A stretch of DNA of 39,885 nt, taken from contig JAHFUJ010000007.1 of NCBI GenBank assembly GCA_023265105.1, positions 1 through 39,885 on the forward strand, in the 5' to 3' direction. Positions 5,670-8,119 of the stretch are shown one piece after another; position 1 is the first letter of the stretch; the number at the start of each line of letters is the position of its first letter. Source of the stretch: Acidobacteriota bacterium. GTDB lineage: Bacteria > Acidobacteriota > Vicinamibacteria > Vicinamibacterales > CAVVIG01. The notes beneath the pieces were generated by a model. The model made no database searches. It was not told where the DNA came from and saw only the letters and a list, made by a program, of their open reading frames with translations. A program made the translations under genes and the position numbers.

Positions 5670-7019
5670 CTACCGTTGTCGACTTCTCCACGACCGGCCC
5701 GGGCCGCGAGGATGATCGCGCCGATCGACGACGGGGCCATGCGCCTGGCCTGTTCGTGGGGCGCCCTGCCATCCCTGCTCGGCCGCGAGGCGGCGAGTGG
5801 CTTTCTCTTTCGCGCGGGCGCGCTCCTGGGTCTTCCTGGCGCGGATCTCCGCGATTCGCTGCGCCAGCGGCACTTCGAGCCGCGCCTCCTGGCGCGCCGT
5901 GTAATCGAAGTCGGGCACGGTGACGCGCGGCAGCCGGTGGCCGATCGCGCGCTCGATCGCGCGCAAATCGCCCTCTTCTTCGGGTGACACAAAGGTAAAC
6001 GCGGCGCCGGTGGCTTCGGCGCGCGCCGTGCGTCCGACGCGGTGGATGTAATCGTCTGGGACCACCGGCACGTCGAAATTCACGACGTGCCCCAGCGCAG
6101 TGACGTCGATCCCGCGCGCGGCGATGTCGGTGGCGACAAGGACGCGGTACTTTCCGCTCTTGAATCCAGCCAGCGCTTCGGTCCGCTGCGGCTGGGACCG
6201 GTTGCCGTGAATGCGCTCGGCCTTGAGCCCGTGCTCCACGAGATGTTTCGCGAGCCGATTGGCGCGATGTTTCGTCCGCGTGAAGACGAGCGCGTCGTGC
6301 ATGTCGCCCTTGTGCAACAGCCTGACCAGCAGCGCCGGCTTGAGATGCTGCGGCACGGGATAGACCGCATGCGTGATCCCGACGGCGGGCGCCGAGCGCC
6401 GCTCGATATTGATCATCGCCGGTTGCTTGAGCATCTCGCGCGACAGTTCCGCAATGGGCGCCGGCATCGTCGCGCTGAAGAACAGCGTCTGGCGCCTGGC
6501 CGGCAGATGCCGGAGGATCCGGCGGATGTCGGGCAGGAAGCCCATGTCGAGCATGCGATCCGCCTCGTCGAGCACGAGGTGCTCGAGGCCGGCGAGCCTG
6601 GCGTACGGCATACGGAAATGATCGAGCAGGCGGCCGGGTGTGCCGACGATCACGTCGACGCCGCTCCGGAAGGCATGCTCTTGTGGTCCCATGCCGACGC
6701 CGCCGAAGACCGACGCGGCGGTGATCGGTGTGTGGACCGCGAGGTCGTTGAGATCTTCAAGAATCTGGGCCGCGAGCTCGCGCGTCGGGGTGATCACAAG
6801 CGCGCGGGTCACGCCCCGCGGGCGATCCAGCAGCTTGTGGAGGATCGGGAGCAGAAATGCGGCGGTCTTGCCGCTGCCGGTCATCGCACAGGCGAGCACG
6901 TCGCGCCCTTCGAACGCCGGCGGAATCGCGTCAGCCTGAATCGGCGTCGGTCGGACAAACCCGAGATCTTTGAGGCCCCTGAGGAGACTGGGATGAAGTT
7001 TCAGATGACTGAACGGCAC
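5670..7019 (-). CDS. DEAD-box RNA helicase, RhlE type
   Basis: 449 residues, an ATP-dependent RNA unwinding enzyme of the cytosol. Motifs in order: Q motif GFVRPTPIQ (20-28), motif I AMTGSGKT (45-52), PTREL (78-82), TPGR (127-130), DEAD (151-154), SAT (182-184), the ARGIDV region and HRVGRTAR (326-333). The tail from about residue 375 is rich in Arg, Lys, Ala and Glu, as in RhlE-like helicases that use it to bind RNA. The start is GTG at 7019. Downstream is the DinB-like gene; upstream are two repeat families. Nothing essential is missing. Confidence 0.93.
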   Translation of the reverse strand: MPFSHLKLHPSLLRGLKDLGFVRPTPIQADAIPPAFEGRDVLACAMTGSGKTAAFLLPILHKLLDRPRGVTRALVITPTRELAAQILEDLNDLAVHTPITAASVFGGVGMGPQEHAFRSGVDVIVGTPGRLLDHFRMPYARLAGLEHLVLDEADRMLDMGFLPDIRRILRHLPARRQTLFFSATMPAPIAELSREMLKQPAMINIERRSAPAVGITHAVYPVPQHLKPALLVRLLHKGDMHDALVFTRTKHRANRLAKHLVEHGLKAERIHGNRSQPQRTEALAGFKSGKYRVLVATDIAARGIDVTALGHVVNFDVPVVPDDYIHRVGRTARAEATGAAFTFVSPEEEGDLRAIERAIGHRLPRVTVPDFDYTARQEARLEVPLAQRIAEIRARKTQERARAKEKATRRLAAEQGWQGAPRTGQAHGPVVDRRDHPRGPGRSWRSRQR

Positions 7020-7085
7020 AGGTCATTATGGCAGGGTCTAGTACGGGGCGTCCGGCTTCCCAGCCTATGAAGAGATCGCGCTAAA

Positions 7086-7175
7086 CGCGGAGGCCGCAGA
7101 GACCGCAGAGGAAATCCTCAAAACGATTCTCTGCGAGTTCTGCGCGCTCTGCGTTCAAACGTGGCTTTTTTTCAC
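7086..7175 (-). repeat. Dispersed GCAGAG-type repeat, copy 1
   Basis: Read on the minus strand from 7175: GTGAAAAAAAG, then CACGTTT, then CGCAGAG, CGCAGA and CGCAGAG spaced by a few bases, then GAGAATC and a partly self-complementary tail (CTCTGCGG, CTCTGCGG). The same order of words occurs on the plus strand at 28768-28850. It fills the upstream region of the helicase gene. No coding frame is apparent. Confidence 0.75.
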
Positions 7176-7184
7176 AACCTCTTC

Positions 7185-7353
7185 AGCCGGACCGTCGCCG
7201 GTACGTAGTGTCGTCGGTACGTGGTGTCCGGCTTTAGCCGGACCGTCGTCGGTACGTAGTGTCCGGCTTTAGCCGGACCGTCGTCGGTACGTAGTGTCCG
7301 GCTTTAGCCGGACCGTCGTCGGTACGTGGTGTCCGGCTTTAGCCGGACCGTCG
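7185..7353. repeat. Tandem 35-bp palindromic array
   Basis: Three exact-length 35-bp units lie at 7236-7270, 7271-7305 and 7306-7340, preceded by a 51-bp variant (7185-7235) with an internal duplication and followed by a 13-bp partial unit. Each unit runs AGCCGGACCGTCGTCGG, TACGTAGTGT (or TACGTGGTGT), CCGGCTTT. At every junction GTCCGGCT-TT-AGCCGGAC forms a perfect 8-bp stem with a 2-base loop. There are no unique spacers, so it is not a CRISPR array. The last codons and stop of the DDAH gene lie inside it. Confidence 0.95.
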
Positions 7354-8119
7354 CAGAAAAGATCAGGCTGCAGCAAGTGATCGCGCCCTCGGCTTTCGCG
7401 ATTTCGCTGACGTCGACCGCGCGCACGCGGAGACCGCGCCGTTCCAACCGCTCGCGCGTGCGCGGAAATGACGCCGCGTAGACCACCTCGCCGCCCACGC
7501 GCAACGCATTCGCGCCGGACGGCTCGTCGGGATGCACGTCGATGAGTTCGACGGTCGAGAAGGGCTCGATCGAGACCCAGTCGCGATTGACGAGCAGGAG
7601 ATCGTCGGCGAGGGCGGTCACGGCGGACTTGAGATGCAGGCATCCGCCGAGGCCGACGCCCACGACGGTGTAGCCGTGCCCGCCAAGAAACTGTCGCATT
7701 TGGTCGATCGCCGGGGCATTGGTTCGGCTGGAACAGCCGACGAAGACCGTGTGGCCGACCACGAGCACGTCGCCGCCGTCGGCCGTTCCTGGTGCTTCAA
7801 TGTGCCGAAGCGGGCGATATCGACCGAGCGTCTCAGCGACCTCAGGCGTTTCGTGGCGGCGCGACGGGGCGCCGGGCCGCGTCACGATCGCGATCTCATC
7901 GAAGACGACGGCGATGTCCTCGACAAACATCGAATCGGGCATGTCTGGGCCCGCGACGAGGCGAAGGATCGTGCAACCGGCGCCGGCAAGAGCCTCCTCG
8001 TAGGCGGCGTGCTCGGCGCGCGCCACGTCGATGTCGATCGCGCGGCGCGGCAGATGCGTCAGCTCGCAGCGCCCGATCGCGGGGCTGACCTCCCGGGTCA
8101 CCGCGACGAGATCAGACAC
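7304..8119 (-). CDS. Dimethylarginine dimethylaminohydrolase family protein with repeat-derived tail
   Basis: 271 residues. The amidinotransferase-superfamily enzyme DDAH hydrolyses N-omega-methylated arginines to citrulline and methylamines. Catalytic-type residues are visible: MFVEDIA (Glu67/Asp68), CLHLKSAVT (His162) and AITCCSLIF (Cys249), the same numbering as the characterised Pseudomonas aeruginosa enzyme, so activity is likely. Arginine deiminase-like hydrolysis of another guanidino compound cannot be excluded. The last 16 residues, ATVRLKPDTTYRRRSG, and the TAA stop are encoded by the 35-bp repeat array, so the original C-terminus has been replaced or extended. The start is GTG at 8119, overlapping the stop region of the DUF1330 gene by 8 bp, so translational coupling is likely. 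Confidence 0.85.
   Translation of the reverse strand: MSDLVAVTREVSPAIGRCELTHLPRRAIDIDVARAEHAAYEEALAGAGCTILRLVAGPDMPDSMFVEDIAVVFDEIAIVTRPGAPSRRHETPEVAETLGRYRPLRHIEAPGTADGGDVLVVGHTVFVGCSSRTNAPAIDQMRQFLGGHGYTVVGVGLGGCLHLKSAVTALADDLLLVNRDWVSIEPFSTVELIDVHPDEPSGANALRVGGEVVYAASFPRTRERLERRGLRVRAVDVSEIAKAEGAITCCSLIFSATVRLKPDTTYRRRSG

Follow-up and report, generated by a model that had tools for sequence, protein, structure and literature searches.

The question raised by this locus is why the reading frame of an enzyme gene runs on beyond the end of the enzyme's fold into a tandem array of palindromic repeats. In the window, the whole 39,885-nucleotide stretch of acidobacterial DNA that was analysed, an array of 35-bp palindromic units overlaps the 3' end of a minus-strand open reading frame (ORF) of 271 amino acids with the C-terminus SATVRLKPDTTYRRRSG-TAA. 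The features of the locus are as follows.

7361-8119, minus strand: DDAH-like enzyme, residues 1-253 of the 271-amino-acid ORF at 7304-8119 (PDB, Pfam ADI, NCBIfam, residue check)
7355-7360, minus strand: Phe254, the last conserved residue and end of the DDAH fold, and Ser255 (chain ends of solved DDAHs)
7304-7354, minus strand: REP-encoded predicted tail ATVRLKPDTTYRRRSG and TAA (translation, array limits, REP-unit frame table)
7181-7353, plus strand: array assigned to the GTAG type of REP, period 35 bp (TRF, tagged-palindrome count)
7221-7244, plus strand: REP core 1, GTGG-T-GTCCGGCT-TT-AGCCGGAC-C
7256-7279, plus strand: REP core 2, GTAG tag
7291-7314, plus strand: REP core 3, GTAG tag, the loop holding the gene's TAA at 7304-7306
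7326-7349, plus strand: REP core 4, GTGG tag, the minus strand reading VRLKPDT
5670-7019, minus strand: DEAD-box helicase-like ORF, downstream and codirectional (identity read from sequence)

Matches to the PDB entries 3rhy, 1h70 and 3bpb (E 4e-42 to 1e-40, with 3rhy at 4e-42) extend over residues 29-254, and the Pfam ADI score of 35.5 bits is above the cut-off of 22.8. Equivalents of the catalytic Cys249 and His162 are present, and position 114 is Asp, not Glu. The NCBIfam DDAH equivalog models were matched but their cut-offs were missed (best 217 bits vs 340), and the predicted protein is therefore named DDAH-like; the initial annotation had called it DDAH. In the three solved DDAHs (dimethylargininases) the chain stops opposite residue 254, in agreement with the earlier statement that the fold ends soon after Cys249.

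TRF reported a period of 35, 4.1 copies and 98% matches at 7210-7353, and a degenerate partial unit takes the array out to 7181; the initial annotation had recognised the array and had placed it at 7185-7400, limits that are here revised to 7181-7353. The tagged palindrome GTRGTGTCCGGCTNNAGCCGGACC is present four times, vs an expectation of 0 from shuffles, and has the form GTRG-T-GTCCGGCT-TT-AGCCGGAC-C in the four copies. By coordinates, Ser255 (7355-7357) lies outside the repeat, Ala256 (7352-7354) sits at the array border with two repeat bases out of three, and everything from residue 257 through residue 271 to the stop codon is encoded entirely by the repeat. The last 16 residues and the TAA are thus read from the array in an open frame, as had been proposed. 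The GTRG tag comes first on the plus strand, and the array is accordingly inverted relative to the DDAH-like gene; a ribosome on that gene would meet the TAA in its second hairpin, in the apical loop. A 200-nt region at the array folds much better than its shuffles (z -6.07), and no Rfam match near the gathering score was obtained in the array region. A CRISPR-like array was ruled out, the unit being a dispersed palindrome that is also found singly and without spacers.

Other repeats were observed in the window. A hairpin of another kind, with heptads CTCTGCG, is found at 7081-7160 between the DDAH-like and helicase genes; 16 of the 77 contigs sampled contain such motifs in pairs, 30 times in all. 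Short heptamer arrays of GCTTTCA and CTGACAG, both seen again elsewhere in the genome sample, lie at 681-770 directly downstream of an rpsG-like ORF (775-1248), and a 24-bp unit in 2.7 copies lies at 1673-1737 directly upstream of an rpsL-like ORF (1280-1654), its core not being found elsewhere in the genome sample.

The repeat unit consists of an unpaired GTRG tag, one base, a perfect 8-bp stem and a two-base loop. In 867 kb of stretches of the genome, some of which were chosen as contigs bearing REPs, 52 REP clusters were found, 90 of 99 exact palindromes carry GTRG one base from the stem, and the loops are TT (39), TC (37) or TG (13). The genome (G000) has the palindrome at 320 sites, and the tagged pattern with both stem variants, GTCCGGCT/AGCCGGAC or GTCCGCCT/AGGCGGAC, gave 411 matches genome-wide against 0 for the reversed control. 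Across 297 genomes sampled throughout the phylum the exact-stem form is confined to the same order, and a scan of named genomes found it in at least 54 stretches; among the matches listed, every record bore the label of an acidobacterial group. Judged by its sequence characters, the array belongs, as a tandem cluster, to a GTAG-type family of repetitive extragenic palindromes (REPs) in this acidobacterial order: the tag, the perfect short stem with a small loop and the high dispersed copy number are accompanied by a preference for gene 3' ends and by a gene for a REP-associated tyrosine transposase (RAYT) between inverted REP copies. This identity had been missed in the initial annotation, together with the transposase in the same genome and the published cases of stops and C-termini provided by REPs (PMC3733652).

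The RAYT gene lies at G000:C36:26400-26900. Its product matches Y1_Tnp, scores 93.8 bits against the NCBIfam model REP_Tyr_transpos (NF047646; cut-off 80), and has the HUH motif, the catalytic Tyr and the NP(L/V)(R/K)xG motif described in PMC2817692, read in the ORF as DHVHLL and RYVLENPLRAG. The REP of the array flanks this gene on both sides in opposite orientations; near the two remaining Y1_Tnp genes (C167, C440) this REP is absent, and the C36 gene alone was therefore assigned to the family. Among 60 relatives the REP copy number lies between 0 and 552 and is greater in those that have a close RAYT (p = 0.0002, 60 genomes, kinship ignored). Some genomes (G023, G012) have REPs and no detectable close RAYT, and G008 has a RAYT of 54% identity and no REPs. 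The REP family was most likely spread by the RAYT of the same genome, a single-strand transposase. In five species (G000, G014, G038, G022 and G050; loci L183, L184, L186, L189 and L191) the loop of the REP that follows the RAYT gene contains the gene's own stop (...SG*), and in G040 (L199) the stop is in the loop of a REP with a different stem, giving the end SDG*. RAYTs of relatives (flanks L192-L199) were also observed between palindromes with other stems, such as GGGTCC/GGACCC, GCGACCCT/AGGGTCGC and GCGACGGCT/AGCCGTCGC, and several REP-RAYT pairs therefore exist in the order.

The three frames of the REP unit read YVVSGFSRT, GT-stop (the TAG of the tag) and RSVRL in one orientation, and VRLKPDTTY, RRSG-stop (a loop TAA or TGA) and GPAKAGHY in the other. 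Because a period of 35 bp is not divisible by three and one frame has a stop in the loop, a ribosome would be halted within about three inverted units, units with a TG loop excepted. The DDAH-like gene has one unit in the RLKPDTT frame and then the stop in the next loop.

Close orthologues of the DDAH-like protein were found in many family members. In about 20 relatives the conserved part ends with CCSLIF or a close variant, and the tails that follow are mostly short and unrelated between species. An orthologue from the same genus (locus L017) ends CCSLVFAA-TGA (TTCGCGGCG-TGA) and is followed by the start of the same helicase gene, with the array absent; the protein of this sister species is 77% identical, too low a value for the exact insertion point to be fixed. 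A REP at the end of this gene is absent from most of the orthologues in the roughly 20 related genomes, and a homologous tail in the absence of the repeat, which would have told against the earlier reading, was seen in none of them. By this comparison, the tail is not native.

Recurrence of such ends at other genes was examined through ORFs entering REPs, of which 102 candidates, many of them shadow frames, were reduced to 28 by a coding-frame test, and most of the 28 were then checked with Pfam. In this genome, REP-derived ends are present in an HlyD-type fusion protein (VRLKPDATTGTP), RimM (NTRSG), an NAD(P)H-hydrate dehydratase/epimerase (EEGSG) and an S9 peptidase (GPAQAGRHV...). In relatives they are present in a lipoyl ligase A/B-type protein (VRLKPDTTYAL), a DUF2304 protein (VRLKADATT...), a glycosyltransferase, a C26 peptidase, an amidohydrolase, an MFS transporter and an EVE-domain protein, and tag-derived stops end a lipoyl synthase-like radical SAM protein, an ABC ATPase, a cytidylyltransferase-like protein and a pyridine nucleotide oxidoreductase. 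Tails of the RLKPDTT kind, which the initial annotation had suggested for proteins unrelated to one another, were found directly in the DNA (HlyD-type, lipoyl ligase-type, DUF2304 and RimM proteins), and a literature search for the peptide RLKPDTT returned nothing. RimM orthologues end in EKSG in G014, in EVRLKPDTTGT in G011 and in VGRRMKPDVT, apparently a diverged version, in G001. The rimM gene (L214, L220, L221) was seen with a REP or REP-like end in several species and in differing frames, which suggests repeated insertion at one gene end. In a separate observation, the enolase ORF at L126:11266-12843 has 526 amino acids and a Pfam match that stops at residue 430, and another frame holds a normal-looking enolase C-terminus that ends with a stop in a REP tag (...AGRSAIRTIST*), which makes a frameshift likely, whether a real one or an error of the assembly.

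Both in this genome and in the relatives, gene 3' ends show a strong enrichment of REPs. Of 43 REP clusters in this genome, 6 enclose the stop of the upstream gene, as do 19 of 95 in the relatives, and the cluster overlaps the stop or lies 0-14 nt past it in 14 of 43 and 39 of 95, vs a baseline of 5.7% and 7.0% of intergenic bases, respectively; these fractions are estimates, because genes were called with a simple codon-usage caller.

Insertion of a mobile GTAG-type REP followed by growth of the array very probably explains the tail. A REP would have landed at, or a few bases from, the stop codon of the DDAH-like gene and would then have grown to the array of 35-bp units; with the former stop lost or displaced, the ribosome would continue into the repeat, and the tail would be a by-product of the landing site of the element, probably tolerated because it lies beyond the end of the fold. 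Most likely the tail has no function. An error of assembly or annotation, with the gene truly ending earlier or the array mis-joined, is very improbable, even though the genome is a many-contig draft, repeats are prone to error and the enolase ORF seems frame-shifted near a REP: no stop lies between the conserved Cys249 and the array, the architecture recurs in independent assemblies (MELA, MEKU, JACQZV and others), and the order of the helicase gene is identical in the sister genome. The copy number of the array rests on the assembly, because the genome is fragmented (452 contigs, 80% complete).

The RLKPDTT motif shared by unrelated proteins could also point to a tag peptide that works in localisation, degradation or binding and was spread by selection to many proteins, but the peptide follows mechanically from the DNA, several of the kinds of end offered by three frames in two orientations are seen with no clearly favoured frame, and tail-less orthologues exist, so that such a tag is hardly to be believed in. 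A more serious proposal, and one compatible with REP insertion, is that the element is kept at the stop for a function, its mRNA hairpin, met by the ribosome at the final codons, slowing termination and lowering the output of the enzyme. The strong folding of the 200-nt region makes a regulatory role of the hairpins possible, and the enrichment within 15 nt of gene 3' ends, the RAYT stops in the loop in five species and a precedent in E. coli, where REPs within 15 nt of a stop reduce translation according to a summary in PMC12306157, fit with it. The same enrichment is, however, equally expected if selection removes insertions elsewhere, the REP is missing at this site from most DDAH orthologues, and the frame, hence the tail, varies freely from case to case; retention for such a function is a tentative alternative with the balance against it. 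The wider idea that the REP is a portable termination module of the order, whose tag and loop stops end unrelated genes including that of its transposase and whose stop in an RNA loop tunes translation, is a doubtful one.

The kind of event favoured here, REP insertion at a gene end, is already known. Di Nocera et al. (2013; PMC3733652) reported that GTAG REPs supply stop codons and encode C-termini, with slightly more than 10% of them at the ends of coding regions and with the tags giving TAG stops. Their superfamily resembles the present family in the tag (GTAG/GTGG), which is unpaired, in the TY loop and the perfect stem of 6-9 bp, in having hundreds of copies scattered through the genome and placed at the 3' ends of genes, and in the RAYT between inverted copies; the present family differs in being acidobacterial, in its stems (GTCCGGCT/AGCCGGAC or GTCCGCCT/AGGCGGAC) and in the use of loop stops besides tag stops. 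The REPs of Stenotrophomonas maltophilia and their group 3 RAYT (Nunvar et al. 2010, PMC2817692; PMC8266576) share the GTAG tag, 8-bp perfect palindrome and short loop, and the HUH, Tyr and NP(L/V)(R/K)xG motifs, whereas the family described here has another stem sequence and another host phylum. Rickettsia palindromic elements likewise are palindromic repeats in ORFs that add residues to unrelated proteins, but, as summarised in PMC3733652, they lie within ORFs and some of their carrier proteins are expressed, whereas here the element ends the protein. The E. coli REPs also place a hairpin at or directly past the stop codon, whereas the hairpins here are inside the reading frame, with the stop in the loop. 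Neither this acidobacterial REP family nor the loop stop of its RAYT gene turned up in a limited literature search.

Puzzling ends of acidobacterial proteins, such as RLKPDTTY, SGFSRT, GPAKAGHY and RSG, would on this explanation be the translated ends of mobile hairpins, and C-terminal motifs common to proteins in such genomes would be no evidence of homology. The many natural insertions, including those at rimM, may serve as a set for asking what effect a hairpin has when it replaces the end of a gene.
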